From contig CACYVC010000018.1 in NCBI GenBank assembly GCA_902777835.1, forward strand, positions 1 through 54,935: a DNA stretch of 54,935 nt, in the 5' to 3' direction. The notes beneath the pieces are model-generated. The model was not told the origin of the DNA. It worked only from the letters and a program-made list of their open reading frames with translations, and did not search any database. The position numbers and the translations under genes were made by a program. This stretch comes from an uncultured Bacteroidales bacterium. Its GTDB lineage: Bacteria > Bacteroidota > Bacteroidia > Bacteroidales > Muribaculaceae. Positions 540 through 42,831 of the stretch are shown in pieces; positions within the stretch are counted from its first letter, which is position 1; the number at the start of each line of letters is the position of its first letter.

Positions 540-1169
540 ATGAGAAAAATTTTCACTTTATTGCTGCTTTGCAGCCTTGTAATGGGTGCTAGCGCGCAGA
601 TTGTTGACGCTGAGCTTGCTACTAAGGCTGCCGACAAGACAGTGTTTTACCAAACACCACAAATCGAGAAAAAGAACACTTTTATTGTGGTCTCCAAAAC
701 CGAACTGCGACTTTATGTCTATGGTACAGTGGGCAAAGACACCGTGTTAATGGCGAAGTTTCCTGCCTGCCTGAGCCGCAACAAAGGTCAGAAGCAGCGC
801 AAGGGCGACAACAAGACTCCCGAGTGCAAGCAGAGCAAGCCATTCCATATCCAGGCGATTCGCAACGCCTCGGCATGGACCCACAACTTCCATGATGGTC
901 GTGGCAATATCAAGGCCTATGGGGCGTGGTTCCTGAGCCTCTACACTCCAGGACACAGTGGCATCGGCATCCATGGCAGCACCAACAATGAGAGCAGTGT
1001 GCCTGGACGCGCCAGCGAGGGCTGCATCCGCCTGCGCGACCCCGACATTATCATCCTCAAGGAGAGATATGCCTACCTCAACATGCCAGTGATCATCAAA
1101 AGTGAAACCGAGGGTCCATGGGGCTGGGAACTCAAGGCTCATGCTAAAGCGGTTGAAATTAAGGAGTAA
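540..1169 (+). CDS. L,D-transpeptidase (YkuD domain), secreted
   Basis: 209 residues with an N-terminal signal peptide (about residues 1-19, ending ASA|Q). The rest is a YkuD catalytic domain. The signature is clear: His145 in GIGIHGSTN and, about 17 residues on, SEGCIRL with the nucleophile Cys162. Family members form 3-3 cross-links in peptidoglycan or attach proteins to it in the periplasm, using a thioester at the Cys. The next gene is a paralogue with the same motif block, so this is a tandem duplication. The stop codon TAA at 1167-1169 is also the first three bases of a 7-bp repeat array. A promoter lies at 474-503. Exact cross-linking role is inferred. Confidence 0.88.
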   Translation: MRKIFTLLLLCSLVMGASAQIVDAELATKAADKTVFYQTPQIEKKNTFIVVSKTELRLYVYGTVGKDTVLMAKFPACLSRNKGQKQRKGDNKTPECKQSKPFHIQAIRNASAWTHNFHDGRGNIKAYGAWFLSLYTPGHSGIGIHGSTNNESSVPGRASEGCIRLRDPDIIILKERYAYLNMPVIIKSETEGPWGWELKAHAKAVEIKE

Positions 1170-1201
1170 GTGTTAAGTTTTAAGTGTTAAGTTTTAAGTT
1201 T
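1167..1201 (+). repeat. Five 7-bp repeats (TAAGTGT/TAAGTTT) starting on a stop codon
   Basis: Units at 1167, 1174, 1181, 1188 and 1195 read TAAGTGT or TAAGTTT. The first unit contains the TAA stop of the upstream L,D-transpeptidase. The same unit in reverse complement (ACACTTA) recurs at 21275-21309. Confidence 0.85.
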
Positions 1202-1218
1202 GGGACGGCGCAACCACC

Positions 1219-1300
1219 TTCCACCTTTAACTTTCCACCTTCCACTTTCCACTTTCCACCTTCCACTTTCCACCTTCCACCTTCCACGCGCTGAAAGCGC
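1219..1300 (+). repeat. Ten 7-bp repeats (TTCCACC/TTCCACT) ending in a GCGC hairpin
   Basis: Heptamers run without a break from 1219 to 1288; one unit is TTTAACT and the rest are TTCCACY or TTCCACG. They end in a hairpin GCGCT-GAA-AGCGC at 1288-1300, followed by a run of A and the next start at 1317. The same heptamer family is found at 4180-4240. Confidence 0.85.
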
Positions 1301-1316
1301 AAAAAAAGATTTTAAC

Positions 1317-1940
1317 ATGAAAAAGATATTCACTTATATAATGCTTGCAGCTGTCGTCACTGCGTTAACCTGCTGTGGCGGCAAGAAGGACGATGAAGAA
1401 AGTAAGTCTTCATCGGCACCACGCGAGAAGAAAGAAAAATATAAGGACATCTACAAGGGCGAATACGATAAGAGCAAGACGTTTATCGTAATCTCCAAGA
1501 AGGACCTACTGCTCACTGTTTATGCACCAGTCAAAGGTGACACAGTGCCAGTGGCGCAGTTCCCTGTGTGCCTAAGTCTTAACAAAGGACAAAAGCAGAA
1601 ACCAGGTGACATGCGCACTCCTGAGAGCGAGCCTGGTGAACCATTTGTTATTGATGCCATTAAGCCCGCAAAAGACTGGACTCACGACTTTGGCGACGGA
1701 CGAGGGGCTATTCTCGCCTATGGCGACTGGTTTTTGCGCCTCAAGACTCCAGGACACAGTGGCATCGGCATCCATGGCAGCACCAACAACGACAATTCTG
1801 TGCCCGGTCGCGCCAGCGAGGGCTGTATCCGCCTCCACGACCCCGACATAATCACCCTCAAAGAGCAATACGCCCGTGTTGGCATGCCTGTAATCATTAA
1901 GCAAGAAGATCAAGGGCTAAAGTCTTTTGAGAAGAAATAA
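1317..1940 (+). CDS. L,D-transpeptidase (YkuD domain) lipoprotein
   Basis: 207 residues from the ATG at 1317. The frame is open further upstream, but that part translates the repeat array, and the chosen start gives a proper lipoprotein signal (MKKIFTYIML...LTCCGGKK, lipobox Cys near residue 20). A charged Lys/Ser linker leads to a YkuD domain with GIGIHGSTNN and SEGCIRL, so the catalytic His and Cys are both kept. It is predicted to be a periplasm-facing anchored enzyme acting on peptidoglycan, alongside its secreted paralogue at 540-1169. The two genes are nearly identical over about 44 bp around the catalytic His, which points to recent duplication or gene conversion. Confidence 0.86.
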   Translation: MKKIFTYIMLAAVVTALTCCGGKKDDEESKSSSAPREKKEKYKDIYKGEYDKSKTFIVISKKDLLLTVYAPVKGDTVPVAQFPVCLSLNKGQKQKPGDMRTPESEPGEPFVIDAIKPAKDWTHDFGDGRGAILAYGDWFLRLKTPGHSGIGIHGSTNNDNSVPGRASEGCIRLHDPDIITLKEQYARVGMPVIIKQEDQGLKSFEKK

Positions 1941-1951
1941 AACTAAATAAA

Positions 1952-1996
1952 TCTAGAATTTCTAGAACAACTAGAATCTCTAGAACTTCTAGAACC
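1952..1996 (+). repeat. Five 9-bp repeats (TCTAGAANN)
   Basis: Units at 1952, 1961, 1970, 1979 and 1988 are TCTAGAATT, TCTAGAACA, ACTAGAATC, TCTAGAACT and TCTAGAACC. The core TTCTAGAA is self-complementary. The array sits between the L,D-transpeptidase stop (1940) and the prolyl oligopeptidase start. Sister arrays lie at 15281, 15998, 28109 and 38282. Confidence 0.85.
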
Positions 1997-2018
1997 ATAC
2001 CTCCAAGAAAAAATAGAA

Positions 2019-2060
2019 AACTGAAAACTCAAAACTATAAACTATGAACTATAAACTATT
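2019..2060 (+). repeat. Six 7-bp repeats (AACTGAA/AACTATR) overlapping a start codon
   Basis: Units are AACTGAA, AACTCAA, AACTATA, AACTATG, AACTATA and AACTATT in unbroken register. The ATG start of the prolyl oligopeptidase (2044-2046) is the end of the AACTATG unit, and the next units encode the first residues NYKLF. Confidence 0.82.
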
Positions 2061-4152
2061 TCTCATGTGCGCAGCACTCACTATTGCTGGCTCGGCAGTA
2101 GCACAGCAAAAAATCAACTACCCCAAGGCAAAAACCGTTGATGTCACCGATGACTATTTCGGCACTAAAGTTGCCGATCCATATCGTTGGCTCGAGGATG
2201 ACAACAGTCCCGAGACTGCCGAGTGGGTAAAGGCCGAGAACGAAATTACACAAGCCTACCTGAAAAAGATTCCTTTCCGCGATAAGGTGAAGAAACGCCT
2301 CACCGAACTCGCCAATTACCCCAAGATGGGTACGCCATTCTATGTAAAGGATAAAATCTACTACTTCAAGAACGATGGCCTGCAAAACCAGAGCGTGCTT
2401 TACACCAAAGACAAGCTCGACGGCGAGGAACGCATGGTTTTTGACCCCAACACACTGAGCAACGACGGCACCGTGGCACTGCAGAGTCTCAACTTCTCGA
2501 AGGACGGACGCTATGCCGCCTATACCATTACCCGCAACGGTAGCGACTGGAACGAGATTATCGTCCATGACCTGAAGACCGACAAGATGCTCAACGACCA
2601 CATCATCTGGGCTAAGTTTACCGATGCGCAGTGGTTGGGCGATGGTTTCTTCTACAGCGCCTACGACAAGCCCGAAGATGCCAAGTCGTCAAAGAACGAG
2701 TGGCACAAGGTGATGTACCACAAGCTGGGCACACCTCAAGAGGAGGACTACCTTGAGTTCCGCAGCTATGAGGATCCACTTCTCTTCAACCAGGTGGGCG
2801 TTGATGAGAACGAGCGTTTCGTCTTCATTCTGCAAAGTGCAGGTGAGGGCAACTCGCTCTTTGTAAAGGACCTCAAGGCTCTCAACCCACATTACGTGAA
2901 GATTGCCGACGATGGCGAGTATGCCTTCTCCCCCATTGGTGTGGACAACGGCAAGATTTATGTGATGACCAACCAAAACGCTCCATGCTACAAGGTGCTT
3001 GCCTATGATGCTGAGAACCTTGGCGCAAAGAACTTCACCGAGTTCATCCCCGAGAAAAAATGGGTGCTCAGCGGCATTCAGATGAGTGACCACAAGTTCA
3101 TCGTCACCTACGACCGCGACGCCAGCAGCCATGCCTATCTCTATGACAAAAACGGCAAGGAGCTGCAAGAGATAAAACTTCCAACGCTTGGTTCAGTTGG
3201 GTTCAGCAGCAAGAACACTCGCAAAGAGGTGTTCTACAACTTTACTTCTTACACCTTCCCAAGCACTATCTACAGCTACAACCCCGAGACCAACGAATCG
3301 ACACCGTTCTTCCAGCCAAAAGTGGCGCTTAATCCTGAGGACTATGTCACCGAGCAGGTGTTCTACCCCAGCAAGGACGGCACAAAGATTCCTATGTTCC
3401 TCATCTACAAGAAGGGCATGAAGAAGGACGGCAAGCGACCAGTATTTCTCTATGGATATGGTGGCTTCAACGTGTCGATGAATCCAGGTTTCAGCTATGC
3501 ACGCACTCCATTTGCCATGATTGACAAGGGCGGCATCTGCGCCTACACTAACCTGCGTGGTGGTGGCGAGTATGGCGAGGAGTGGCACAAAGCTGGTACC
3601 AAGATGCAGAAACAGAACGTGTTTGACGACTTCATTGCCGCTGCCGAGTGGCTCATAGACCAGGGCTACACCAAGAAAGGCAAAATCGCATGCAACGGCG
3701 GTAGCAACGGCGGACTCCTTGTGGGTGCCGTAGTGAACCAGCGTCCCGACCTGTGGGGTGCTGCTGTACCTCAAGTGGGCGTGATGGACATGCTTCGCTA
3801 TCACCTTTTCACCATCGGCTGGAACTGGGCACCTGACTACGGTCGCAGCGACGACAGCAAGGAGATGTTTGAATACCTCAAGGACTACTCTCCATTGCAC
3901 ACAATCAAGAACGACGGCACACCCTACCCACCCATCATGGTTACTACCAGCGACCACGACGACCGTGTGGTACCCGCCCACTCGTTTAAGTATGCCGCTC
4001 AACTCCAAGCCAGCAACACCGGCAATGCCGTGAAACTCATCCGCATCGATGTTAACGCCGGCCACGGTCACGGTAAACCCATGAGCAAAGTAATTGAGGA
4101 ATACACCGATATCCAATCGTTTATCATGTATAACCTCGGCGTAAAACCATAA
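2044..4152 (+). CDS. Prolyl oligopeptidase family serine peptidase (S9A), secreted
   Basis: 702 residues, close to the family's usual ~710. A signal peptide (residues 1-20, ending AVA|QQ) is followed by the N-terminal cap, a seven-bladed beta-propeller (about 75-420) and an alpha/beta-hydrolase domain. The triad is visible: Ser554 in GGSNGG, Asp640 in DHDDRV and His674 in AGHGHGKP. The GGFN and LRGGGEYG segments typical of the family are present before the Ser. It should cleave short proline-containing peptides, here in the periplasm or outside the cell. The start codon lies inside a heptamer repeat, so the first residues (NYKLF) come from repeat DNA. Upstream neighbours are L,D-transpeptidases; the lolD-like gene follows across another repeat element. 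Confidence 0.92.
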   Translation: MNYKLFLMCAALTIAGSAVAQQKINYPKAKTVDVTDDYFGTKVADPYRWLEDDNSPETAEWVKAENEITQAYLKKIPFRDKVKKRLTELANYPKMGTPFYVKDKIYYFKNDGLQNQSVLYTKDKLDGEERMVFDPNTLSNDGTVALQSLNFSKDGRYAAYTITRNGSDWNEIIVHDLKTDKMLNDHIIWAKFTDAQWLGDGFFYSAYDKPEDAKSSKNEWHKVMYHKLGTPQEEDYLEFRSYEDPLLFNQVGVDENERFVFILQSAGEGNSLFVKDLKALNPHYVKIADDGEYAFSPIGVDNGKIYVMTNQNAPCYKVLAYDAENLGAKNFTEFIPEKKWVLSGIQMSDHKFIVTYDRDASSHAYLYDKNGKELQEIKLPTLGSVGFSSKNTRKEVFYNFTSYTFPSTIYSYNPETNESTPFFQPKVALNPEDYVTEQVFYPSKDGTKIPMFLIYKKGMKKDGKRPVFLYGYGGFNVSMNPGFSYARTPFAMIDKGGICAYTNLRGGGEYGEEWHKAGTKMQKQNVFDDFIAAAEWLIDQGYTKKGKIACNGGSNGGLLVGAVVNQRPDLWGAAVPQVGVMDMLRYHLFTIGWNWAPDYGRSDDSKEMFEYLKDYSPLHTIKNDGTPYPPIMVTTSDHDDRVVPAHSFKYAAQLQASNTGNAVKLIRIDVNAGHGHGKPMSKVIEEYTDIQSFIMYNLGVKP

Positions 4153-4153
4153 T

Positions 4154-4240
4154 GCGCCTTCGGCGCGTGAAATGAAAAAGGTGGAACGTGGAATGGAATC
4201 CAGCCTTCCACTTTCCACCTTCTACTTTCCACCTTCCACC
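4154..4240 (+). repeat. GCGC hairpin plus inverted TTCCACY heptamers
   Basis: A hairpin GCGCC-TTC-GGCGC (4154-4166) is followed by GGTGGAA/CGTGGAA/TGGAA units (4180-4197), then the opposite strand form TTCCACT, TTCCACC, TTCTACT, TTCCACC, TTCCACC at 4206-4240. The two arms are complementary and could fold. The array stops 5 bp before the ATG at 4246. Confidence 0.82.
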
Positions 4241-4245
4241 AACCA

Positions 4246-4908
4246 ATGATAGAAGCAAATAACATAACAAAACGCTATGGTGACCTTGAGGTCTTGAAAG
4301 GGGTCTCGGTCACCATTAACGACGGCGAGATTGTTGCCATCGTTGGACCTAGTGGCGCAGGAAAGACCACGCTGCTGCAAATCATAGGCACACTCGACGC
4401 GCCACAGGGCGGGCAGGTGCTCTATGACGGTACCGATGTGCTGAAACTCAAGCAGCGCGATCTGGCACACTTCCGAAACCGCAACATCGGGTTCGTGTTT
4501 CAGTTTCATCAGCTGCTGCCAGAGTTCACCACCCTTGAGAATGTAGCTATTCCTGCACTTATAGGCGGCGACAAGAAGAACGATGCCTACGAGCGGGCAC
4601 GACAGTTACTCGACCATCTAGGACTTGGCGGCCGTCTTGAGCACAAACCAGCACAGCTCAGTGGTGGCGAGCGGCAACGGGCAGCAGTGGCACGCGCCCT
4701 TATTAATAATCCCAAGGTGATTCTCGCCGACGAGCCCTCGGGTTCGCTCGACTCGCAGAACAAACAGGAGTTGCATCAGCTCTTCTTTGACCTGCGCAAG
4801 GAGTTTAACCACACCTTTGTCATAGTCACTCACGATGAAAGCCTAGCTGGAAACAGCAATGTAGATAGAGTGCTACACATGCGCGACGGAATAATTGAAA
4901 ATGTATAA
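4246..4908 (+). CDS. ABC transporter ATP-binding protein, LolD/MacB type
   Basis: 220 residues, a single nucleotide-binding domain. Walker A GPSGAGKT is at 34-41, the signature LSGGERQ at 138-144, Walker [10 protein letters not shown] around 158-166 and the switch His in VTHDES near 199. The [21 protein letters not shown] stretch is typical of the LolD/MacB/FtsE subgroup, which powers lipoprotein release from the inner membrane or related mechanotransmission. No permease gene of the LolC/E type is adjacent, so the partner must be encoded elsewhere. Start ATG is just after the repeat array. Transport substrate is inferred from subfamily only. Confidence 0.85.
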
Positions 4909-9086: not shown

Positions 9087-9186
9087 TTAATCAAGAACGA
9101 AGTAGGCAATTTTTTTCAACAAATGTGATTGTTTTTTAAGCCAAAACAAGTTTATGACCAAAAAATGAAGAATTGTGATTAAAGAT

Positions 9187-9247
9187 AAAGGATTAGAGAA
9201 CTTTTAGCTAATCTCTAATCCTTAATCCTTAGTCAGCGCAATGCGCT
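9187..9247 (-). repeat. 7-bp ATCCTTA-type inverted array plus GCGC hairpin; possible mgtE terminator
   Basis: GGATTAGAGA (9190-9199) pairs perfectly with TCTCTAATCC (9212-9221). The right arm continues as heptamers CTAATCC, TTAATCC, TTAGTCA and ends in the hairpin AGCGC-AAT-GCGCT (9235-9247), 5 bp after the mgtE stop on the minus strand. Same layout as the elements at 1219-1300 and 4154-4240. The stem could also terminate mgtE. Confidence 0.7.
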
Positions 9248-9252: not shown

Positions 9253-10641
9253 TTATCCTAACGTCATCAAATGGATGAGTTGTGTGCTGATGAACATATA
9301 GATGAGCATGCCCACGATATCGTTGGTCACCGTCACAAACGGTCCCGTAGCAATAGCTGGGTCAATCTTCAGCTTTTCAAGGACGATGGGCACCATAGTG
9401 CCAAATACCGAGGCAAAGAGCACCACGGCAAACAACGAAATAGTCACTGCCAGCGAAGTGGCCATGGCTTTTTGTGAATCGCCATCGGCAGGGAATATCA
9501 AGTTATAAATGAATACCAGTCCGGCAATGAGCACCGCATTGAGCATAGCTACAAAGAACTCTTTGAGCAAGTGCTTGCCTGCCTGCTTTAGTTCCAGACT
9601 GCCGTTGGCAAGACCTTGCACCACGATAGCACTCGACTGGGTGCCCACGTTACCGCCAGTGCCACCAATCAAGGGGATAAACATTGCCAAACCTGGGAGC
9701 ACCGTCTGCCATTCACCATTATCTCCTCCTTCAAGAATCAAGGCATTGGCTATACCTCCCACTATACCTATCAAGAGCCAGGGGAAACGGGCTCGGAATT
9801 GCGTCCACACGCTGTCGCCAGTTTCCACGTCGGCAACGAGACCAGTCGCCAATTGGTAGTCGCGCTCGCTCTGCTCACGCACCTGGTCCATGATATCATC
9901 GACGGTGATACGTCCCACGAGGCGACCTATGGAATCGACCACTGGCATCGCCACGAGGTCATATTTCTCGAAGTCGAGCGCCACATCCTCGATGGGCGTG
10001 TCGGTCCTTACGGAGATGGGATTAGGTTCCATCACATATTTTATCTTATTGGCCGACGGGTTGGTGATAGTGGTCTTGAGGGGGAACACTCCCTTGAGGC
10101 GGTGGTCATCGTCAACAACATATATGTTGTAGATCTCGTCCATGTCCTCGGCTTGCTCACGCATCGTCTTGATGCAGTCGGGCATCGAGAGGTTCTCGTT
10201 TACGACAATCATCTCGGTTGACATGTGACCACCAGCGGTGTCTTCGTCATATTGCAGCAGGTCAACGATGTCGCCTGCCTGCTCCACGTCATCGATGTGC
10301 TTGATTACATCCTCCTGATCGTCTTCATCAAGTTCCTGGATAAGGTCAACGGCATCGTCGGCATCCATCTGCTCCACGGTGCGGGCGATGGTCTCGTTAG
10401 GCATTATCTCGAGCAAGTCGGCACGCTCGTCCTCGTCGAGCTCGGCAAGCACGTCGGCCACCGTCTCATCATCGAGTTGCTGCAGCACAAACAGCGCCTC
10501 GTCGGCATCGTCAAGCTCGTTGATGAGTTCGGCGATATCGGCGGGGTGCATATCCTTTATCTCAGTTTTGAGCTGCTCTCCGTTTTTTGCCTCAATCAGT
10601 TCTTTCAACTGGTCGATATTGTCGATATTAAATTCTTTCAT
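9253..10641 (-). CDS. mgtE: Magnesium transporter MgtE
   Basis: 462 residues with the standard MgtE order: an N-terminal superhelical acidic domain (to ~130; DMHPADIAELINEL, repeated LDDE/LDEDE), two CBS domains (about 130-255; TAGGHMSTEM and VMEPNPISV openings) and a C-terminal five-helix membrane pore (about 280-462) with the GGTGGNVGTQSSAIVVQGLANG signature. Family members are dimeric Mg2+ channels of the inner membrane gated by cytosolic Mg2+ binding between the N and CBS domains. It lies 74 bp downstream of rsmA on the same strand, with a small octamer repeat in the gap. A pairing of ksgA/rsmA with mgtE is common in Bacteroidales. Confidence 0.95.
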   Translation of the reverse strand: MKEFNIDNIDQLKELIEAKNGEQLKTEIKDMHPADIAELINELDDADEALFVLQQLDDETVADVLAELDEDERADLLEIMPNETIARTVEQMDADDAVDLIQELDEDDQEDVIKHIDDVEQAGDIVDLLQYDEDTAGGHMSTEMIVVNENLSMPDCIKTMREQAEDMDEIYNIYVVDDDHRLKGVFPLKTTITNPSANKIKYVMEPNPISVRTDTPIEDVALDFEKYDLVAMPVVDSIGRLVGRITVDDIMDQVREQSERDYQLATGLVADVETGDSVWTQFRARFPWLLIGIVGGIANALILEGGDNGEWQTVLPGLAMFIPLIGGTGGNVGTQSSAIVVQGLANGSLELKQAGKHLLKEFFVAMLNAVLIAGLVFIYNLIFPADGDSQKAMATSLAVTISLFAVVLFASVFGTMVPIVLEKLKIDPAIATGPFVTVTNDIVGMLIYMFISTQLIHLMTLG

Positions 10642-10651: not shown

Positions 10652-10686
10652 AGCTAACAAGCTGACAAGCAAACGAGCTAACAAGG
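10652..10686 (-). repeat. Four 8-bp repeats (AGCTAACA type)
   Basis: On the plus strand the units are AGCTAACA, AGCTGACA, AGCAAACG and AGCTAACA. The array is between rsmA and mgtE. A looser copy (GGCTAACT...AGCTGACA) follows the RNase H gene at 28828-28849. Confidence 0.65.
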
Positions 10687-15280: not shown

Positions 15281-15325
15281 TCTAGAATTTCTAGCCCCTC
15301 TAGAATTTCTAGAGCCTCTAGTTTA
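15281..15325 (-). repeat. Five 9-bp repeats (TCTAGAATT type) running into a stop codon
   Basis: Plus-strand units TCTAGAATT, TCTAGCCCC, TCTAGAATT, TCTAGAGCC and TCTAGTTTA fill the gap between hsdR and the upstream small gene. The last unit includes the TAA stop (minus strand) at 15323-15325. Confidence 0.8.
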
Positions 15326-15997: not shown

Positions 15998-16056
15998 TCT
16001 CTAGTTTATCTAATGTTTCTAGAAGTTCTAGTTTTTCTAGAAGTTCTAGCCCCTAG
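15998..16056 (-). repeat. 9-bp CTAGAANTT-type repeats running into the hsdS stop
   Basis: Plus-strand units such as TGTTTCTAG, AAGTTCTAG, TTTTTCTAG, AAGTTCTAG and CCCCTAGCC repeat every 9 bp. The last includes the hsdS stop codon (CTA on the plus strand, 16053-16055). Confidence 0.75.
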
Positions 16057-21258: not shown

Positions 21259-21309
21259 CTGCGACAAGTCGCAGTAACTTATCACTTAACACTTAACACT
21301 TATCACTTA
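21259..21309 (-). repeat. Hairpin plus five 7-bp repeats (ACACTTA type) next to a stop codon
   Basis: CTGCGAC-AA-GTCGCAG (21259-21274) is followed by TAACTTA, TCACTTA, ACACTTA, ACACTTA, TCACTTA up to 21309, two bases before the glycosyltransferase stop (21312-21314). The unit is the reverse complement of the TAAGTGT array at 1167-1201. Confidence 0.8.
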
Positions 21310-21311
21310 AC

Positions 21312-22448
21312 CTACGCTTTGCCTCTAGCTTGGTCGTAGGTAAGCATAGTGCTTTGCGCCAGATTATGCTGGGTGAATGCTGCAGCGAGTTCTTTTCCCT
21401 TGTCGGTCAACGCCTTGCATCTATCGGGGGAACTTAGCACGGTGTTGATGTGCTTGGCGAGTTGTTCCTCATTCTTAGGATCGAAATAGAGGGCAACATC
21501 TTTTGCAATCTCGCGGTGGCATCCGTCATCACTGGTGATGAGTGGTGTGCCGCTAATCATCGCCTCGATGACGCACTGTCCCATACCGTCGGCAATTGAG
21601 GGGTCGATAAAGGCTTTTGAAAGCGCATACAGGCACATGAAGTTGTGCTTGTTCACACTCGATACTCTCACTATGCGCTCCTCGATGTTGAGTTTCTCGG
21701 CGAGACGCTTGAGTTGCCTATATCGATCATTCTTCTTGCCAATGATGACGAGGTCGATTTTCTTGTCATCAATTTTAGCGAAAGCCTTATATAGAGTCTC
21801 CATGTTGCTCAAATCCCCAAAGTCGGTGACTGCAAGAATGAAGTTAGACGGCAGGTTGTATTTTCCCTTAGTGTTCTGGATGAAAATAGGGTCGTTTAGG
21901 TTCTCGATATACTCATCGCGGTAGGCAGTATAGATGACATCAATCTTGTTGGCACTGGTGCCATACTTCTTGATTATAGAGTCCTTGATATACTCGCTGG
22001 TGGCAATGATGCGGTCGGCTCGCTTGCAGGCATGGCCTATGCGGGAACTACGCCTTAGTTTTTCAAACCAAGTGTAGTCGTTCATGAATCGCTTGAAGGA
22101 GAGGTCGCGCACGGTGGTCACCATTCTCACTTTCTCCTTGCCATGCCCCGAGGGCAGCACTGAGTCCAGGCCGTGAAACACTTTCACGCCATGACGGTGG
22201 AAGTCGGTGAAAATGCCGCTGCGGTTGCGCCATAACCATTTGCTGAAAGCCTTATATGGAGTTTTCAGGTGTACACTCGATATAGAAAGCAGCCACGATA
22301 GGCCACGGTCACTAGAGTTTTCGGGAGTATATACCATAAAAGAGTCTCTAGGATATTCCATACCTAGCGACGAAATCAAGAGACGGTCGTAATAACACAG
22401 TTGGGAATTACTGTTTACCGTTCTTATACCATCAAAACCTATTGTCAT
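21312..22448 (-). CDS. Glycosyltransferase family 4 (GT-B) protein
   Basis: 378 residues. The C-terminal half has the GT4 donor-binding pattern: LAVTDFGDLSNMETLYKAF, IIGKKNDRYRQLKRLAEKL, then the SKAFIDPSIADGMGQCVIEAM segment with the E-x7-E-type region and GTPLITSDDGCHREIAKDVALYFDP. The N-terminal half has a GFDGIRTVNS start. Such enzymes transfer sugars from nucleotide donors to glycans or lipids in the cytoplasm. Donor and acceptor are not predictable. Terminal residues after the GT fold are few. It is followed by a repeat array. Confidence 0.85.
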   Translation of the reverse strand: MTIGFDGIRTVNSNSQLCYYDRLLISSLGMEYPRDSFMVYTPENSSDRGLSWLLSISSVHLKTPYKAFSKWLWRNRSGIFTDFHRHGVKVFHGLDSVLPSGHGKEKVRMVTTVRDLSFKRFMNDYTWFEKLRRSSRIGHACKRADRIIATSEYIKDSIIKKYGTSANKIDVIYTAYRDEYIENLNDPIFIQNTKGKYNLPSNFILAVTDFGDLSNMETLYKAFAKIDDKKIDLVIIGKKNDRYRQLKRLAEKLNIEERIVRVSSVNKHNFMCLYALSKAFIDPSIADGMGQCVIEAMISGTPLITSDDGCHREIAKDVALYFDPKNEEQLAKHINTVLSSPDRCKALTDKGKELAAAFTQHNLAQSTMLTYDQARGKA

Positions 22449-27321: not shown

Positions 27322-28047
27322 ATGAAAAAAGCTATAATAATAGGAGCCTCATCGGGACTGGGATACGAAGTGGCAAGATTGCTGCTTGAGCAGGGGTGGA
27401 CCCTTGGCGTGGCAGCGCGCAGGCTTGAGAAGCTGGAACAGTTGCGCGACACCGCCCCCGAAAAGGTGCAGACACAAGTTATAGATGTTACGAGCGATGA
27501 TGCCCCAGCGCATCTGCAGGAGCTTATCGACAAAGTTGGGGGCATGGATCTTTTATTCTATGCTTCGGGAGTCGGCAACCAGAATATGGAACTGGAGCCG
27601 GACATAGAGCTCAAAACAGTGAATACCAATGGACTGGGTTTTGCGCGTATGATAGGGGCTGCCTATCGCTACATGGCAGCGCATGGTGGAGGGCACATAA
27701 CCGCCATCAGCAGCATTGCTGGCACTAAGGGACTTGGCGCGGCACCTTCTTATTCTGCTACCAAAGCTTTCCAAGGCACTTATCTGCAAGCTCTCGAGCA
27801 GCAAGCCAATATGCGTGGACTGAACATCCGTTTTACCGATCTGCGGCCAGGTTTTGTCGCTACGCCATTACTTGGCGACAACCCTAAATACCCTATGCTC
27901 CTCGACACTAAAAAAGTGGCGCGGGAAATAGTGCGTGCCATCAACAAGGGCAAGCATGTGCATGTCATCGACTGGCGCTGGCGCATCGCCACAGCCATGT
28001 GGCGCCGCATCCCAAGATGGATATGGAGAAGGCTTAAAGTGAAGTAG
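27322..28047 (+). CDS. Short-chain dehydrogenase/reductase (SDR)
   Basis: 241 residues with the classical SDR core. The cofactor motif IIGASSGLGYEVA (about residues 4-16), the NTNG-like segment VNTNGLGFA, the catalytic Ser (ISSIAGTKG) and YSATK (Tyr and Lys of the YxxxK active site, about 148-152) are all present. It should reduce or oxidise a small carbonyl/alcohol with NAD(P)H; the substrate is unknown. A basic C-terminal helix (WRWRIATAMWRRIPRW) is unusual and may contact a membrane. Translation start is chosen at 27322 because the promoter lies upstream of it. The stop TAG overlaps the first unit of a heptamer array. Confidence 0.9.
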   Translation: MKKAIIIGASSGLGYEVARLLLEQGWTLGVAARRLEKLEQLRDTAPEKVQTQVIDVTSDDAPAHLQELIDKVGGMDLLFYASGVGNQNMELEPDIELKTVNTNGLGFARMIGAAYRYMAAHGGGHITAISSIAGTKGLGAAPSYSATKAFQGTYLQALEQQANMRGLNIRFTDLRPGFVATPLLGDNPKYPMLLDTKKVAREIVRAINKGKHVHVIDWRWRIATAMWRRIPRWIWRRLKVK

Positions 28048-28101
28048 TTCATAGTTCACAGTTCATAGTTAAGAGTTCACAGTTAAGAGTTCATAGTTGA
28101 G
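28046..28101 (+). repeat. Eight 7-bp repeats (AGTTCAT/AGTTCAC/AGTTAAG) starting in a stop codon
   Basis: Units in unbroken register from 28046 to 28101. The first begins at the second base of the SDR stop TAG (28045-28047). This is the left arm of a composite element that continues to the next start codon. Confidence 0.85.
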
Positions 28102-28108: not shown

Positions 28109-28144
28109 TCTAGAAATTCTAGATTTTCTAGAAGTTCTAGAAAA
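28109..28144 (+). repeat. Four 9-bp repeats (TCTAGAANN)
   Basis: TCTAGAAAT, TCTAGATTT, TCTAGAAGT and TCTAGAAAA form the centre of the composite element between the SDR and RNase H genes. Confidence 0.82.
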
Positions 28145-37025: not shown

Positions 37026-38249
37026 ATGGCTGAGAGCAACTTTATTGATTATGTGAAGATTATGTGCCGCAGTGGGCATGGCGGAGCAGGGTCAAAGCAC
37101 CTGCACCGAGCAAAGTATATACCCAAAGGAGGTCCCGATGGTGGCGATGGCGGCCGTGGTGGGCACATCTTCCTGAAGGGCAACCGCAACCTATGGACAC
37201 TGATTCACCTGAAATATCAGCGTCACATCTTCGCCACCGACGGCGCACCAGGTTCTGAGAACCAGTGTACTGGCAAGAAGGGCGAGGACCGTACTATTGA
37301 GGTGCCTTGCGGCACTGCTGTGTATGATGCCGAGACAGGCAAGTTCCTGTGCGACGTGACTAAAGATGGTCAGGTGGTGCACCTGCTCAAAGGCGGCCGC
37401 GGCGGCTTGGGCAACGTGCATTTCAAGAGCGCCACGCGCCAAACTCCCCGTTTCGCTCAGCCTGGTGAGAATGGTGTGGAGAAGACTATCATCCTTGAGT
37501 TGAAGCTGCTTGCCGATGTAGGTCTTGTGGGGTTCCCCAATGCTGGTAAATCGACGCTTCTCTCGGTAATTAGTGCCGCTAAGCCAAAAATCGCAAACTA
37601 TCCCTTTACTACCCTTGAGCCCAACTTGGGCATCGTTACTTATCGTGGTCAGCAGTCGTTTGTAATGGCCGATATCCCTGGCATCATTGAGGGTGCCAGC
37701 GAGGGTAAGGGCCTGGGACTCCGCTTCTTGCGACACATTGAGCGTAATGCCGTGTTGCTATTCATGATTCCGAGCGACACCGACGACATCAAGCGCGAAT
37801 ATGAGATACTGAGCAACGAGCTTGCAACTTTCAACCCCGACCTGGTAGAGAAACCTCGTGTGCTTGCCATTACCAAGTGCGACCTCATCGATGAAGAGCT
37901 CAAAGAAATGCTTCGCGACGGACTTCCCAGCGACGTACCAGTGGTGTTCATCTCTAGTGTGGCTCAGCAAGGCCTGACCGAGCTCAAAGACATCTTGTGG
38001 CGCACCATCAACGATGAGCACAACCGCATCCCCGACACCGTTGCCCTACATGATCTCGACGCCCAGCATCGTGTGCAAGAGGAGGATGACTTCATCTTCG
38101 CCGCCGAGGATCCCGACTACGACGAAATGCCCGACGCTGGCGGCAAGATGATAGTAGATGAGCAAGAATGGGACGACGAGTTCTGGGAAGAGAAATATAA
38201 GGATACCGACCGCGACTTCCAAATCATCAATGACGAAGAGGAAAAATAA
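37026..38249 (+). CDS. obg: GTPase Obg (CgtA)
   Basis: 407 residues. The N-terminal Obg fold (1-160) shows the Gly-rich [27 protein letters not shown] and [13 protein letters not shown] turns. The G domain has G1 GFPNAGKST (about 168-176), switch [16 protein letters not shown] and the NKxD-type KCD in AITKCDLID. An acidic C-terminal tail ([16 protein letters not shown]) is long but typical of Bacteroidota. Obg binds ribosomal particles and acts in 50S assembly and stress control. It starts a + strand group with the LOG gene, separated from it by a composite repeat element. Confidence 0.96.
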
Positions 38250-38253
38250 TTTT

Positions 38254-38281
38254 AGTTCATAGTTCACAGTCTATAGTTCAC
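38254..38281 (+). repeat. Four 7-bp repeats (AGTTCAY)
   Basis: AGTTCAT, AGTTCAC, AGTCTAT and AGTTCAC, four bases after the obg stop. Left arm of the second composite element. Confidence 0.82.
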
Positions 38282-38326
38282 TCTAGATAATCTAGAACTT
38301 CTAGAAAATCTAGAGATTCTAGGAAA
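38282..38326 (+). repeat. Five 9-bp repeats (TCTAGAANN)
   Basis: TCTAGATAA, TCTAGAACT, TCTAGAAAA, TCTAGAGAT and TCTAGGAAA follow the heptamers without a gap. Confidence 0.82.
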
Positions 38327-38361
38327 ACTGAAAACTCACAACTGAAAACTGACAACTCAAT
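38327..38361 (+). repeat. Five 7-bp repeats (ACTGAAA type) abutting a GTG start
   Basis: ACTGAAA, ACTCACA, ACTGAAA, ACTGACA and ACTCAAT; the array ends one base before the GTG start at 38363. Confidence 0.82.
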
Positions 38362-38362: not shown

Positions 38363-38950
38363 GTGGCTTCTGAAAAAATCAATATATGTGTCTTTGGCGC
38401 TTCGAGTCGTGACTTGGAGCAGGCTTACGTTGACGCGGCCTATCAACTTGGCGCGCTCATGGCGCAGCGTGGATGGACATGCTACAACGGTGCCGGCTGC
38501 GAGGGACTGATGCGCGCTGTGAGCGACGGTGCGCTCGACACTGGTGGCGAAGCCATTGGCGTGATACCGAAGTTTATGGTAGATAATGGATGGCACTACG
38601 ACCGTCTCACACGCATTATCACTACTGCCGACATGCACGAGCGCAAACTCACTCTTGCTCAGATGACGCAGGCCGTGATTGCTCTGCCTGGCGGTTGCGG
38701 CACCCTTGAGGAACTGCTCGAGGCCATCACCTGGCGGCAGCTCAACCTTGCGCCAAAACCCATCGTGGTGCTCAATACACTGGGCTATTACAGTCACTTA
38801 GCCGCTATGCTCGACACTGCTATAGAGCAAGGTTTCATGCGCAAGAGTCATCACCGATTGGTGCGGTTTGCCGACACTCCCGAGCAAGCCATTGCCGCTG
38901 TTGAGAGCGAGCTCCAGTCAGTTCCCGAACCCATAGAATCAAAGTACTAG
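38363..38950 (+). CDS. LOG family protein (TIGR00730; cytokinin riboside 5'-monophosphate phosphoribohydrolase-like)
   Basis: 195 residues from a GTG start (the next in-frame ATG is much later and would remove the first strand ICVFGASS). Rossmann-like fold with the family's LPGGCGTLEELLEAITWRQL, i.e. PGGxGTxxE, and TADMHERKLTL before it. These proteins hydrolyse nucleoside 5'-monophosphates to release bases; they were long mis-annotated as lysine decarboxylases. Physiological role in Bacteroidales is not settled. It follows obg across a composite repeat; the DUF4271 gene begins 11 bp after its stop. Confidence 0.88.
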   Translation: MASEKINICVFGASSRDLEQAYVDAAYQLGALMAQRGWTCYNGAGCEGLMRAVSDGALDTGGEAIGVIPKFMVDNGWHYDRLTRIITTADMHERKLTLAQMTQAVIALPGGCGTLEELLEAITWRQLNLAPKPIVVLNTLGYYSHLAAMLDTAIEQGFMRKSHHRLVRFADTPEQAIAAVESELQSVPEPIESKY

Positions 38951-38961: not shown

Positions 38962-39828
38962 ATGCCTACCGATAACATTCAAAATATCACCGACACCACT
39001 TTGACAACTGTGCACGATACTGTTGTTGCACCAGTGCTGCATAAAGCTCAATATCTCAACGGCTTTCCTGCACCTCAGGGCAATGACACCACTACTGCCA
39101 ACATCGCACAGATGCCCGTGATTGAGGTGCCTAAAGGCAGCAACGCTCGCACCCATAACTCGTCGCCACTGCACGACACAGGGTCGATGATTATGCTTCT
39201 GCTCTCGTGTATGTTCCTCATGACGAGTTATCGCTTGGGGCGCTCCTACATTTACAATCTTGGTCATTATTTGTTCTCTCCAAAGGGAAAGGACGACCTC
39301 TTTGCTGAGCACACCAGCAGCGACGCTCGCATCATTATCGCCATGATTGCCAACACCTGCCTCATGGGAGGAATCATGTTGTATTACGGCTTGCTGTGGT
39401 ACAACCCGTCGCTCACTGTGGTGCTGCAGAACTCGGTGTTCCTGCATGTGCTTGTGCTCACACTTGCCATGGCAATCTTTGTCACCTTGCAATTGCTGTT
39501 GTATCGCCTGATAGGCTACACTTTTGCTACTGAAAACCTAACTGATATGTGGGTGCAAGGCTTTTTGGCGTCGCAGGCGGTGCTCGGACTGCTCCTCTTC
39601 CCAGTTGCCGTGATTACTCTAGTTTTCCCGAGCACCATAAAATTGATGGTCACGATAGCGATTATCCTATACATTTTGGGGAGAATAGTGTTTATTTCTA
39701 AGGGTTTTAGAATTTTTTTCAACAATTTGTCCTCAAGTATTTATTTTATTTTGTACCTTTGCGCCGTCGAAATTGTACCCCCTCTCCTGGCTCTTGCCGG
39801 TACAGTTTATGTGTGCACCATATTATAA
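38962..39828 (+). CDS. DUF4271 domain integral membrane protein
   Basis: 288 residues. A soluble N-terminus (~70 residues, Thr/Asp-rich, no clear signal peptide) is followed by about seven membrane helices (for example SMIMLLLSCMFLM near 75 and the last at 270-288). The family is restricted mostly to Bacteroidota, has no known function, and is commonly found directly before a uroporphyrinogen-III synthase gene, as here. It starts 11 bp after the LOG gene. A -7-like box (39755-39762) lies near its 3' end, probably for the next gene. Confidence 0.82.
   Translation: MPTDNIQNITDTTLTTVHDTVVAPVLHKAQYLNGFPAPQGNDTTTANIAQMPVIEVPKGSNARTHNSSPLHDTGSMIMLLLSCMFLMTSYRLGRSYIYNLGHYLFSPKGKDDLFAEHTSSDARIIIAMIANTCLMGGIMLYYGLLWYNPSLTVVLQNSVFLHVLVLTLAMAIFVTLQLLLYRLIGYTFATENLTDMWVQGFLASQAVLGLLLFPVAVITLVFPSTIKLMVTIAIILYILGRIVFISKGFRIFFNNLSSSIYFILYLCAVEIVPPLLALAGTVYVCTIL
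39755..39762 (+). promoter_or_regulatory. Possible internal promoter for the hemD-like gene
   Basis: TACCTTTG within the last codons of the DUF4271 gene, 85 bp before the GTG start at 39847. The best TTTG (39727-39730) is 24 bp upstream, longer than usual. Confidence 0.4.
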
Positions 39829-39846
39829 ATGTAAAATATTGAAACA

Positions 39847-40842
39847 GTGAAGATTAAGAAAATCTTGGTTTCCCAACCGAAACCATTATCTGAAAAATCT
39901 CCTTATTTCGATTTGGAAAATAAGTATGGCGTTGAAGTGGTTTTCAGGCCATTTATTAGAATTGAGGGGTTGACATCAAAGGAATTCCGACAGGCAAAAA
40001 TCCCTATCAATAACCACACAGCAGTGATTTTCACAGCTCGTACTGCCGTGGATCACTACTTCAGGCTGTGTAAGGAGCTGAGTTTCAAGGTTCCCGACAC
40101 AATGAAATACTTTTGTGTGAGCGAGACAATTGCCCACTATCTGCAAAAGTATATCATCTATCGCAAGCGCAAGATTTTCTACACCGAGACAGGACATGCC
40201 GAGTCGCTGTTGCCACTGCTTGCCAAGCACAACAAGGAGACTTATCTCTACCCAATCAGCGATGTCCATGACCAGAAACTCCACATCCCCGAGGACGGAA
40301 GCATAAAGTTCACTAAGGCTATAATGTACCGTACCGTGAGCAACGTGATTCGTAACGACGAGCCGTTTGATTACGACATGATTATTCTGTTCACTCCTTC
40401 GGGCGTGAAGTCGCTCCTTCAGAGCTTCCCACACTTTGAGCAAGGAAACATAGCGCTGGGAGCTATGGGAGGAAAGACCATTGAGGAGATTAAGAACAGC
40501 AACCTCAGGCTTGACCTTACCACATCGTCCAAGGCGCCATCAATCGCTGCCGCTATGGACCAATACATAGCAGAGCACATCGATGACCCCGACGAGCCTC
40601 GCATCGAGCAAGAGCGTTACAAAGAGCCCATTCCAGAGCCCAAACCAAAGCCCATTTCTCCAGCCAAAGTGCACAGACCTAAGGTAGAGGAGAAAGTTGA
40701 GGAAAAGAAAGTGGCGAAAAAAGCTCCAGCCAAAAAGGCTCCTGCTAAGAAGGCGGCAACTGCCAAAAAAGCCACTACAGCTAAGAAAGCAACAGCTAAA
40801 GCCGCCCCAGCAAAGAAAACCACCAAGAAGACCGACAAATAA
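39847..40842 (+). CDS. Uroporphyrinogen-III synthase family protein with Lys/Ala-rich C-terminal tail
   Basis: 331 residues from a GTG start. Residues 1-240 show the HemD fold: KILVSQPKP at the start, NHTAVIFTARTAVDHYF, YPISDV, ILFTPSGVKSLL and IALGAMGGKTIEEI. This enzyme closes the linear tetrapyrrole to uroporphyrinogen III. After a Pro-rich hinge (EPKPKPISPAK) comes a tail of about 60 residues of KKAPAKKA/KKATAKK repeats, like the basic tails of histone H1- or AlgP-type proteins. That tail is not needed for HemD activity. It lies 18 bp after the DUF4271 gene. A strong terminator follows. No other heme genes are nearby, so the tetrapyrrole role is inferred from the fold. Confidence 0.8.
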   Translation: MKIKKILVSQPKPLSEKSPYFDLENKYGVEVVFRPFIRIEGLTSKEFRQAKIPINNHTAVIFTARTAVDHYFRLCKELSFKVPDTMKYFCVSETIAHYLQKYIIYRKRKIFYTETGHAESLLPLLAKHNKETYLYPISDVHDQKLHIPEDGSIKFTKAIMYRTVSNVIRNDEPFDYDMIILFTPSGVKSLLQSFPHFEQGNIALGAMGGKTIEEIKNSNLRLDLTTSSKAPSIAAAMDQYIAEHIDDPDEPRIEQERYKEPIPEPKPKPISPAKVHRPKVEEKVEEKKVAKKAPAKKAPAKKAATAKKATTAKKATAKAAPAKKTTKKTDK

Positions 40843-40865
40843 CGCGATTCTTGCACAATCAATAA

Positions 40866-40904
40866 ATCCCCATAACTCAATCGCAGTTATGGGGATATTT
40901 TTTG
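40866..40904 (+). terminator. Strong terminator after the hemD-like gene
   Basis: ATCCCCATAACT (40866-40877) pairs perfectly with AGTTATGGGGAT (40885-40896), 7-nt loop, followed by ATTTTTTTG. Confidence 0.9.
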
Positions 40905-40951
40905 TATCGGCGGTCACTTGTGACCAGCGTTATTCACACCATTGCGGTGCA

Positions 40952-41824
40952 TTATCTTTGGTCTGCTCCCCAGAGGAGTTTCTCGCGGAGGGTGCTGGCG
41001 AAGTTGTGGTCGCTGCGCTGGAGCACTGTGAGTCGGTAGGGGGCTCTCGCAATCTTCACGGTTGTGCCGCTGGGGAGAGTCATCGCCATGCCATCGACAC
41101 TCACCTGTATCCACTTTGCACGAGTGTTGATGGTGACTTCTATCAACGAGTCTTCGTTAACCACGATGGGGCGCATGGTGAGCGAGTGTGGTGAGATAGG
41201 GGAGAGCACCAGGCAGCTTGTAGAGGGGTTGATGATGGGACCGCCCACGCTCATATTGTAGGCTGTGGAGCCTGTTGGGGTGCTTATCACGAGACCATCA
41301 CCTTTGTAGGTGGTGAGCATGGTGCCATCGATGGTGGTGGGGATAGAAATCATTGAAGTGGTGTCTTGACGCAGGATTGCTATCTCGTTGAGTGCAACCA
41401 CATTGTCGCATGGTTTTCCATCAATTTCGAGCAGTTGCAGCATGGTGCGCTGTTCGCGTCGGCACTCGCCTTGCGCTATCCTTTCGATGATATCGCTTGC
41501 CTCGTTGATGCGTCCGGCAGTGAGATATCCCAGATGCCCCGAGTTGATGCCCACTACAGGTGTGTTGTGCGCTGCTAAGCGTGCCGCATTTCTCAGCATA
41601 GTGCCGTCGCCTCCAATGCTCACCGCCAGCGATGCTCCCTCAAACGTGTTGCGGTCAAACTCCCACTCTTGGCTCACGTCAACACCTAATGACCTTAGAT
41701 AGCGAGCAAAGTCACGCTCTACCATAAGGGTTACGCCGTCTTTCTTCTGCAAGTAAGCGATGAGGTCACAGAGCTGGTCTTTATATTTCTCTTGATAACT
41801 ATTTCCAAAAAGTGCAATGTTCAT
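40952..41824 (-). CDS. nadK: NAD kinase
   Basis: 290 residues. It phosphorylates NAD to NADP using ATP or polyphosphate. The GGDGTMLRNAARL motif (about 71-83) carries the catalytic Asp, followed by VVGINSGHLGYLT and the second conserved block GDGLVISTPTGSTAYNMSVGGPIINP. The N-terminus (MNIALFGNSYQ) is the usual Rossmann start. Convergent to the hemD-like gene, divergent from pdxJ; in many Bacteroidales nadK precedes pdxJ in this same arrangement. Confidence 0.96.
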   Translation of the reverse strand: MNIALFGNSYQEKYKDQLCDLIAYLQKKDGVTLMVERDFARYLRSLGVDVSQEWEFDRNTFEGASLAVSIGGDGTMLRNAARLAAHNTPVVGINSGHLGYLTAGRINEASDIIERIAQGECRREQRTMLQLLEIDGKPCDNVVALNEIAILRQDTTSMISIPTTIDGTMLTTYKGDGLVISTPTGSTAYNMSVGGPIINPSTSCLVLSPISPHSLTMRPIVVNEDSLIEVTINTRAKWIQVSVDGMAMTLPSGTTVKIARAPYRLTVLQRSDHNFASTLREKLLWGADQR

Positions 41825-41928
41825 AGTAAATGCAGTGTTCTTGCCACCATAATGGCCTCGAATTTGTGAAAAACGTTGAAAAAACTCTTTAAAGTGCTAT
41901 TTTGTTTTTATTTCTCACTAATATCTTC

Positions 41929-41936
41929 TACTTTTG
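41929..41936 (+). promoter_or_regulatory. Possible promoter of pdxJ
   Basis: TACTTTTG, with TTTG at 41901-41904 (24-bp spacer, long). It is 117 bp before the pdxJ ATG. Confidence 0.4.
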
Positions 41937-42052
41937 TAACACGATATATTGTGAGGTTTCTCATAACTGACGGCAAAATTAATAATTTTTGCTCACATTT
42001 ATGCACTAATATGAGAAAACAACACGTTATTAATTAACATAACTAAGTTTTT

Positions 42053-42766
42053 ATGATAAACCTGAGTGTAAATATAAATAAGGTTGCTACACTGCGCAAT
42101 GCTCGCGGAGGCAATCTGCCCAACGTGCTGCAAGTGGCTTTAGACATAGAGCGCTTTGGCGCCGATGGAATCACCGTGCATCCTCGTCCCGACGAAAGAC
42201 ACATTCGCCGCAGCGATGTTTATGAGCTCAAGCCTGCTTTGCACACCGAGTTCAACATCGAGGGTTTTCCCGACAAGCGATTTATGGACATGGTGCTCGA
42301 AGTGCGTCCACACCAGGCGACTTTAGTGCCCGACGCACCCAGTGTGCTTACCTCGTCGCAGGGATGGCCTGTGGCCGAGAATATGGACTTCCTTAAGACT
42401 GTGGTGGCGCGGCTCAAAGAGGCGGGCATCAGAGTGAGCATCTTTGTTGATGCCACCGAGGAACGCGTGCGTCAGGCGGCAGAGGCAGGAGCCGATAGGG
42501 TAGAGCTCTACACCGGTCCCTTTGCCCAGATGTTCTCCACTGCCCCAGACCAGGCAGTGGCACCCTACACCCTTGCCGCTAATGTGGCTCATGAAGTGGG
42601 ACTGGGACTGAACGCTGGTCACGACCTCAACCTCTTAAACCTCAAGTTCTTTAAGGACAACGTGCCTTACCTTAATGAGGTGTCGATAGGTCATGCCCTC
42701 ATCAGCGATGCCTTATATCTGGGACTAGAGAAAACCATCAAGGCTTACCAGAAATGCCTTGTTTAA
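42053..42766 (+). CDS. pdxJ: Pyridoxine 5'-phosphate synthase
   Basis: 237 residues, the standard length. A TIM barrel that makes pyridoxine 5'-phosphate from 1-deoxyxylulose 5-phosphate and 3-amino-2-oxopropyl phosphate. Motifs are the N-terminal [31 protein letters not shown] (active-site His and Arg), EFNIEG, TLVPD, the phosphate-binding GLNAGHDLN and [11 protein letters not shown] at the end. It sits between nadK (divergent) and the exb/tonB set, a familiar order in Bacteroidales. Its stop is followed at once by a long heptamer array. Confidence 0.97.
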
Positions 42767-42831
42767 AGTTCACAGTTCATAGTTCACAGTTCATAGTTCA
42801 CAGTTCATAGTTCACAGTTCATAGTTCACAG
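42767..42831 (+). repeat. Nine 7-bp repeats (AGTTCAC and AGTTCAT strictly alternating)
   Basis: AGTTCAC and AGTTCAT alternate from the base after the pdxJ stop (42764-42766) to 42829, then AG and a run of seven T. A 14-bp tandem, the most regular array in the window. Confidence 0.92.

Follow-up and report, generated by a model that had tools for sequence, protein, structure and literature searches.

The gaps between genes in the window analysed here, the whole 54,935-nucleotide contig C18 of an uncultured Bacteroidales bacterium of the gut, carry short tandem arrays of two unlike kinds: heptad arrays, which repeat a 7-bp unit, and arrays in which the hexamer TCTAGA recurs every 9 bp with three nearly free bases between the boxes, (TCTAGA-N3)n. 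The sequence-only reading of this DNA had described a single phenomenon with a period of 7, 8 or 9 bp; the arrays are real, but they fall into these two kinds and the 8-bp array is isolated. With a probability of roughly 0.5, the two kinds are unrelated, the heptads arising by tandem duplication together with selection on their orientation and the TCTAGA hexamers being recognition boxes under selection.

All 13 places listed in the sequence-only reading hold arrays, as judged by re-reading and then by scoring at periods 7, 8 and 9 against 200 dinucleotide shuffles. Period 7 scored best at eight of the 13 (1167, 1219, 2019, 4154, 9187, 21259 and 28046, where none of the 200 shuffles did equally well, and 42767, with 1/200). 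Period 9 was best at four: 38254 (0/200), 15998 (3/200), 1952 (5/200) and 15281, which with 20/200 is weak alone. The remaining place, 10652, holds a lone 8-bp array (16/21 bases, 0/200 shuffles) that lies under the strict threshold of the genome counts. As had been claimed, arrays also take in codons of their neighbours, namely two stops, of the genes that end at 1169 and at 28047, and the start at 2044.

Arrays were counted in 41 stretches of the genome (assembly of 2.89 Mb, 90% complete), including the window, which together comprise 838,828 bp, 640 predicted genes, 728 kb of coding sequence and 468 gaps of 20-1000 bp; shorter and longer gaps are omitted from the gap counts. Genes were predicted with a home-made caller, which leaves a 3.5-kb hole at 47.2-50.7 kb of the window, and a strict array was defined as at least 17 of 21 successive bases identical to the base one period onward. 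Gaps and coding sequence contained 104 and 1 strict arrays at period 7, 2 and 0 at period 8, and 8 and 5 at period 9, respectively. At periods 4-6 and 10-13 no strict array was found in the gaps of the 41 stretches; multiples of 7 and 9 do appear. When all gaps were dinucleotide-shuffled 20 times, a single period-7 array appeared overall and none at periods 8 or 9. Period 7 is dominant, period 9 is real and period 8 is rare. The tandem 7-bp period is confined to intergenic DNA and is not equally common inside genes. Many of the 41 stretches were picked because matches to AGTTCAY fell in them. A less biased subset, consisting of the window and 21 contig-start stretches (some also with AGTTCAY matches), held 45 arrays in 474,935 bp, with the same ranking of gap classes as all 41 stretches. 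Extrapolated from this subset, a heptad density of ∼95/Mb corresponds to ∼270 arrays per genome.

The heptads share an orientation relative to genes. On the sense strand, units near stops are mostly AGTT or AAGT, and units near starts are AACT or ACTT, their reverse complements, or CCAC or ACGA. When the 98 of 141 lenient arrays lying within 30 bp of a gene end were scored by motif, the AGTT-type strand was the sense strand in a ratio of 48:9 at stops, where this means outward, and of 3:38 at starts (p = 4.5e-15). The motif list was drawn up after the arrays had been looked at, so that this scoring cannot be called blind, and composition decided the class of 'other' families. The AACT/AGTT family alone gave 26:2 at stops and 1:19 at starts, and the 43 arrays farther from gene ends 8:6 and 6:23 (p = 0.03). 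Convergent (11:3) and divergent (1:5) gaps obey the same rule. The nine exceptions at stops include five AATGC-type arrays, all in one orientation, whose scoring relied on composition. At either gene end, the AGTT-type strand runs outward from the nearest gene into the gap.

Many arrays also adjoin the codons closely. Stop-side arrays that start at most 12 nt past the stop number 51. Relative to the end of the stop codon, 23 of them start at -5 to 0 nt; in 20 of the 51 the stop codon is in step with the units, compared with 69 of 618 genes. The stop codon TAG precedes AGTT arrays in 13 of 27 cases compared with 103 of 618 genes overall, and therefore the array often supplies or includes the stop codon. 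Tandem stop codons were considered as the cause of the stop-side orientation and rejected: the units contain stop codons about equally often on both strands (34 and 36 of 51 arrays). Co-directional gaps with arrays at both ends number 15, where 6.3 are expected (p = 0.0003), indicating that some gaps are more array-prone than others. Shine-Dalgarno sites show no excess (24 of 614 compared with 19.4 after shuffling), and leaders are A-rich and G-poor.

Siting between co-directional genes had been proposed as a property of all arrays. By the gene calls, all 13 places in the window lie between co-directional genes, but across the 41 stretches the heptads are not specific to such gaps: the share of gaps occupied is 66/319 for co-directional, 11/70 for convergent and 11/79 for divergent ones (p = 0.16). 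Heptads are not significantly less common between convergent genes, which counts against the claim; the earlier impression arose because most gaps are co-directional. Enrichment in co-directional gaps was not significant for the heptads and was found for the TCTAGA arrays (34 of 39, p = 0.006 compared with the share of such gaps), 13 of 14 in the own genome and 21 of 25 in the related genome G055.

Units of one array resemble each other. In AACT-N3 arrays, likeness at stops was 0.61 for adjacent and 0.73 for next-but-one units, compared with 0.52 for random pairs from the same kind of gene end; at starts the values were 0.66, 0.70 and 0.38, respectively. Likeness of neighbours and next-but-one units is the trace that tandem duplication by 7 and by 14 bp leaves. 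Between arrays the units vary widely, and 54 consensus heptads, with close variants counted apart, were found among the 141 lenient arrays.

Arrays are present in the rest of the genome and also in relatives, there mostly with other units. The genus sample consisted of 14 genomes with one or two stretches of at most 20 kb each, three short pieces being excluded; the stretches of the sister genomes G045, G042 and G011 had likewise been picked around AGTTCAY matches. Strict period-7 arrays were found in 8 of the 14 genomes, 24 in total, compared with one for all other periods from 5 to 12 together, and relatives often use other units such as TTTAGGC, CTAACGA and CACTCAT. Three copies of AGTTCAY in a row match 105 times in the own genome and occur in 5 of 61 genus genomes, own included. 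The gaps of named relatives contained 17 period-7 arrays at the ten nearest loci (8.3 kb), 8 at the following fourteen (6.2 kb) and 1 at 56 more remote loci (30 kb). The prolyl oligopeptidase of the window (2044-4152) is 97% identical to a protein of the uncultured rumen metagenome-assembled genome (MAG) RUG378, filed as Prevotellaceae, and 91-96% identical to those of several MAGs filed as Muribaculaceae, Prevotellaceae, Porphyromonadaceae or Bacteroidales. The family of the own genome is probably Muribaculaceae.

Comparison of orthologous gaps, which had been suggested for detecting changes in copy number, showed that arrays do differ between species, but that whole unit families are often swapped or absent. 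Behind pdxJ (42766), the own genome has AGTTCAY, G045 (protein 96% identical) GGTGGAA, G042 (97%) a long row of GGGGATC/GAGGATC, and G001 (97%) a degenerate trace seen by reading; no array was found there in 26 other relatives examined (of 60 matches), including G010, G011 and G030, with gaps of 40-54 bp. In the gap that follows 38249, where the protein identity is 92-97%, reading reveals arrays in five of eight sisters and the period-7 detector in two of eight; three have none. The sister units at this site are TTAAGTG-like in G042, AAGTAGC in G011, GAACTATAA (period 9) in G030 and AAAGGARKT (period 9) in G001; G045 has a short TAAGTG trace and AACTGAC before the start, which resembles the start-side array of the window, and the stop-side units of the sisters are unlike those of the window. 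In the gap between the oligopeptidase and the ABC-transporter gene, compared in named MAGs whose oligopeptidase DNA is 83-89% identical, GTGGAAN/TTCCACY units are present in the window, L072 and L073. L071 has TAATGCN and TCTAGA, L074 a 10-bp array, L075 AGAGTGG/CTCTCACC, L079 TTTATCG and others, and L078 hairpins; L076, L077 and L094 have no array in this gap. Behind 28047, the AGTT array is confined to the own genome. Behind 21312, the TTAAGTG family is common to three species, and replacement is therefore not universal. At several gaps, judged from the sequences compared, arrays arose or were replaced within the divergence of these species.

A third array class has a period of 10, with the unit TAGYYAYTCN, whose inner degenerate positions are C or T only. 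It was observed in L214 and L216, behind the orthologue of the gene ending at 21312, and in L074, in the oligopeptidase gap. Matches occur in 4 of 61 genus genomes (43 in G030, 25 in G045, 4 in G001 and 2 in G011) and none in the own genome.

The nine-base arrays differ from the heptads in how their parts vary. Pairs of TCTAGA in the own stretches are 9 bp (30 pairs), 18 bp (19) or 27 bp (10) apart, with one pair each at 7, 16 and 36 bp, and none of the remaining 63 of the 64 palindromic hexamers has more than one pair at 9 bp. Conservation among the 89 boxes of 20 arrays (17 from the own genome) reaches 86-89 for the inner letters CTAG, 82 for the first T and 76 for the last A. The spacers are nearly free, with 31 distinct triplets among 69, and adjacent spacers are no more alike than random ones (0.26 compared with 0.36; next-but-one 0.45). 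The same was found in 22 co-directional arrays of relatives (21 from G055), selected by exact three- or four-box patterns, where adjacent spacers scored 0.39 and random ones 0.37. In these 22 arrays, 76 of 104 spacers have A as their third base when read on the sense strand, so that the box may there extend to ATCTAGA, and their median position is 12 nt past the stop and 28.5 nt before the start. Under a laxer definition, the own stretches contain 17 arrays, 15 co-directional, 1 convergent and 1 inside a predicted gene. In the gap behind 28047, boxes are present in three species with differing spacers and absent from a fourth. Three successive TCTAGA-N3 units occur in 47 of 61 genus genomes including the own, with up to 165 matches, compared with one genome for the reversed control; outside the genus, arrays were found in 1 of 118 other genera sampled in the order. 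With a fixed step and free spacers, as in tandem operator boxes, the (TCTAGA-N3)n arrays look like rows of recognition boxes rather than products of slippage. As a separate observation, next-but-one units are more alike than neighbours in AACT-N3 arrays and in the first of the two TCTAGA sets above, and the array at 42767-42833 alternates perfectly.

For the heptads, the following course would explain these properties. A slippage-like tandem duplication, working by 7 and often 14 bp at a time, would make short arrays from gene ends inward to the gaps, and the same process would mutate, replace and lose them in intergenic DNA. Purifying selection would remove heptads from coding sequence, and because it bars them there, many arrays would begin at a stop or end around a start. 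Selection would then sort orientation: before starts, A-rich, G-poor AACT, ACTT or CCAC units would be kept on the sense strand, where they would fit a leader free of structure, the genome lacking Shine-Dalgarno sites. After stops the opposite unit type would be kept; the reason for this preference is the weakest step. The first half of this mechanism, the duplication-driven birth of arrays, is supported, whereas selection on orientation at mRNA ends is what we infer for the second. The TCTAGA hexamers would be kept by selection as intercistronic boxes with free spacers, to be read by a protein or RNA.

Several results weigh against this explanation. In relatives the polarity is less marked, 10:4 for stops and 3:8 for starts (p = 0.047), with 13 of 38 arrays undecided, and when scored by composition it is not significant in any of four groups (p 0.16-1.0). 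The sign of G minus C does not split the stop side of co-directional gaps (17 to 19), because AGTTCAY is nearly neutral, and a composition-based account therefore leaves the stop side unexplained. Array-free gaps are themselves G-poor at start sides (skew -0.19) and unskewed at stops (0.02). Three AGTTCAY units in a row occur at ∼34 places of one genome among the matches listed, yet in few genomes of the genus, and some dispersal therefore seems needed beyond independent slippage. The constancy of the TCTAGA boxes is partly built in and represents an upper view, because the count admitted only boxes with at most one mismatch. Finally, TCTAGA arrays have stronger predicted folds than their shuffled versions (median z -2.4 and -3.6), and RNA structure formed by the palindromes may, by these folding models, be an alternative to recognition boxes.

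It is tentatively considered that in the gaps of this genus, as standing targets, an active process writes fresh arrays of period 7 (or 9 or 10) and of almost any sequence from the stop outward, species by species, beside a genus-private intercistronic (TCTAGA-N3)n code read by a factor acting on dozens of operons. Neutral slippage alone, with removal from coding DNA as the only selection, is doubtful. It would fit the turnover, the homogenisation of neighbours and the unrelated functions of the ten flanking genes scanned in the window, and earlier authors, as quoted in PMC4692102, suggest polymerase slippage for heptamers. With regard to the surface-structure genes that phase-variation repeats accompany, these ten genes are mixed: pdxJ and RNase H, and also cell-wall and sugar enzymes. 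However, the opposite ratios at stops and starts require a directional force, selective or mutational, and background composition predicts the polarity at starts only.

A mobile or gene-conversion process that copies arrays to the borders of genes, using start and stop codons as microhomology, is unlikely. The many AGTTCAY places of a single genome and the frequent register between stop codon and units speak for such copying, but the order of TCTAGA spacers is not common to different loci (0 compared with 0.9 expected in the own genome, 7 compared with 8.1 in G055).

It is improbable that the heptads are sites of a sequence-specific protein, either a ribbon-helix-helix protein such as omega or an RNA-binding S1, cold-shock or RNA-recognition-motif (RRM) protein. 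A plasmid partition protein is said to bind rows of 7-bp sites. For TAACTGA repeats, MacGregor proposes S1, Csp or Csr. Against such a reader, the units at the same site differ between close species in several gaps, and RRM_1 (PF00076) had no match in the own genome, 90% complete, in a search whose control set was positive in 2 of 14 genomes (the Synechococcus and Bacteroides controls). An RRM protein, a lead from PMC11697453 and PMC12119571, is thus not supported.

Very improbable is an intercistronic hairpin that ends or processes mRNA, with stop-side and start-side arrays as its arms: the orientation is opposite at the two gap ends, clear inverted pairs can be read in some gaps (window 4180-4240; L075, L079) and 7 array-bearing convergent gaps do pair (p = 0.022), but the 64 array-bearing co-directional gaps of 60-300 bp pair worse than with permuted partners (-11.4 compared with -13.1 kcal/mol, p = 0.99), which largely rules out an own-gap hairpin in co-directional gaps. 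Array-free gaps, the positive control of this test, do pair (the first 100 co-directional, -13.0 compared with -11.5; 39 convergent, -18.3 compared with -13.5; 0 of 2000 permutations each), divergent gaps are unpaired with (6) or without (49) arrays, and the leader and trailer of the same gene are unmatched (p = 0.44, 6 genes only). Arrays may replace or exclude hairpins in co-directional gaps.

The arrays and adjoining hairpins of the window are listed in the table below.

Tandem arrays and associated hairpins in the window (coordinates in bp)
Feature	Position	Strand	Context
Heptad array TAAGTKT	1167..1201	+	First letters are the stop TAA of the YkuD-domain gene 540-1169
Heptad array TTCCACY, start-side type	1214..1287	+	Followed by a hairpin, then by the gene at 1317
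Small hairpin GCGCTGAAAGCGC	1288-1300		Between the TTCCACY array and the gene at 1317
(TCTAGA-N3) array, 5 boxes (one variant)	1952..1993	+	11 nt past the stop at 1940
Heptad array AACTNNN	2016..2059	+	Spans the start ATG (2044) of the prolyl oligopeptidase gene
Small hairpin TGCGCCTTCGGCGCG	4153..4167	+	Immediately 3' of the oligopeptidase stop
GTGGAAN, then inverted TTCCACY units	4180..4240	+	Gap between oligopeptidase and ABC-transporter ATPase genes
Heptads GGATTAR, partly inverted	9177..9231	-	Past the stop at 9253 (minus strand)
Isolated 8-bp array AGCTRACA	10652..10685	-	
(TCTAGA-N3) array, 5 boxes, two variant	15281..15322	-	
(TCTAGA-N3) array, 4 boxes, two variant	16018..16050	-	Upstream gene has distant matches only
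Heptad array TTAAGTG	21277..21311	-	Directly past a glycosyltransferase stop (minus strand); family also in sister genomes G001 and G045
Heptad array TAGTTCA	28045..28098	+	First unit is the stop TAG of a short-chain dehydrogenase gene
(TCTAGA-N3) array, 4 boxes	28109..28141	+	G045 and G042 have boxes in this gap with other spacers
Degenerate AGTTCAY heptads	38253..38280	+	Close behind the stop at 38249
(TCTAGA-N3) array, 5 boxes (one variant)	38282..38323	+	
Heptad array AACTNNN	38323..38357	+	Ahead of the start at 38363
Heptad array AGTTCAC/AGTTCAT, alternating, perfect 14-bp period	42767..42833	+	Directly past the pdxJ stop

The small GCGC hairpins mentioned in the sequence-only reading are present, for example at 4153-4167, and small G+C-rich hairpins of this and other types adjoin arrays also at 1288-1300, 9235-9247 and 21259-21274. 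The hairpins in the oligopeptidase gap vary between species, and L078 has hairpins there. Rfam models at gathering score identified two tRNAs and no other family in the window. Two genes with YkuD L,D-transpeptidase domains lie side by side at 540-1169 and 1317-1940 and may have arisen by tandem duplication; they are separated by 147 bp, with arrays, in the window and by ∼10 bp in L071 and L072. The region 47697-50635 contains two long open reading frames, of 681 and 296 codons and with GTG starts; their codon use is atypical, the codon model did not accept them, and they were perhaps acquired.

Intergenic heptameric repeats that lie near start and stop codons and point outward are already known from PMC4692102, PMC4679880 and PMC6344855, and the earlier statement that no described element has such properties does not hold for the heptads. 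PMC4692102 describes GGGAATC and GGGGA(C/T)T heptameric repeats in Xanthomonas and Nostoc, of which the G-rich unit forms G-quadruplexes in vitro. Like the arrays described here, these repeats have a period of 7, are intergenic, lie mostly within 50 bp of gene ends with some overlapping stops, run with the unit strand outward from the nearest gene, and vary in length and sequence between close species. The outward orientation is shared by the own genome and is weaker in its relatives. Unlike the Xanthomonas and Nostoc case, where a G-rich unit was studied, many units occur here and whole families are replaced between sister species. By reading, AGTTCAY, TTAAGTG, AACTATG/AACTGAN and TTCCACY contain no GGG on either strand and do not match the G-quadruplex type; GGGGATC of G042 is an exception.

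TAACTGA direct repeats are described in marine Beggiatoaceae, cyanobacteria and five Bacteroidetes in PMC4679880. They are likewise heptamers, mostly intergenic, in genomes with few Shine-Dalgarno sites, and AACTGAT as found here is TAACTGA rotated. They stand forward just upstream of starts, as does the AACT family here (19 forward and 1 reverse near starts), and F. litoralis has one reversed set after a stop. In BOGUAY, according to the same paper, related heptamers are rarely direct repeats, whereas many heptads coexist here, both gene ends are used, and AACTGAT accounts for 6 of 141 arrays rather than being a single heptamer with rare relatives. In PMC6344855, a SPADE survey of 7006 prokaryotic genomes, heptamers are the most abundant tandem repeats in intergenic DNA, as they prevail here, with no clear functional clue; it is a survey without a functional account. 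In the literature searched, with subscription journals mostly not covered, there was no report of many unit families per genome sharing one polarity, of family replacement at orthologous gaps with polarity kept, or of TCTAGA-N3 arrays, and a limited search on TCTAGA repeats in Bacteroidales returned nothing judged relevant.

Tandem palindromic operators, such as the met boxes of MetJ, consist of rows of short palindromes at a fixed short spacing and are the nearest analogy to the TCTAGA arrays. Known operators of this kind serve few operons and lie near promoters, whereas the TCTAGA arrays, extrapolated to dozens per genome, have a 9-bp step and lie mostly from stop to start between co-directional genes. 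On sequence grounds, (TCTAGA-N3)n may be a new element.

Within one genus of tens of species, the same gap can be compared with an array, without an array and with other units. Such comparison allows period, orientation and sequence to be separated, and makes the old puzzle of seven-letter repeats testable. The replacement of units argues against general one-sequence explanations, such as a quadruplex or one binding protein. The TCTAGA-N3 arrays would be a second, genus-specific element, whose pattern predicts a reader.

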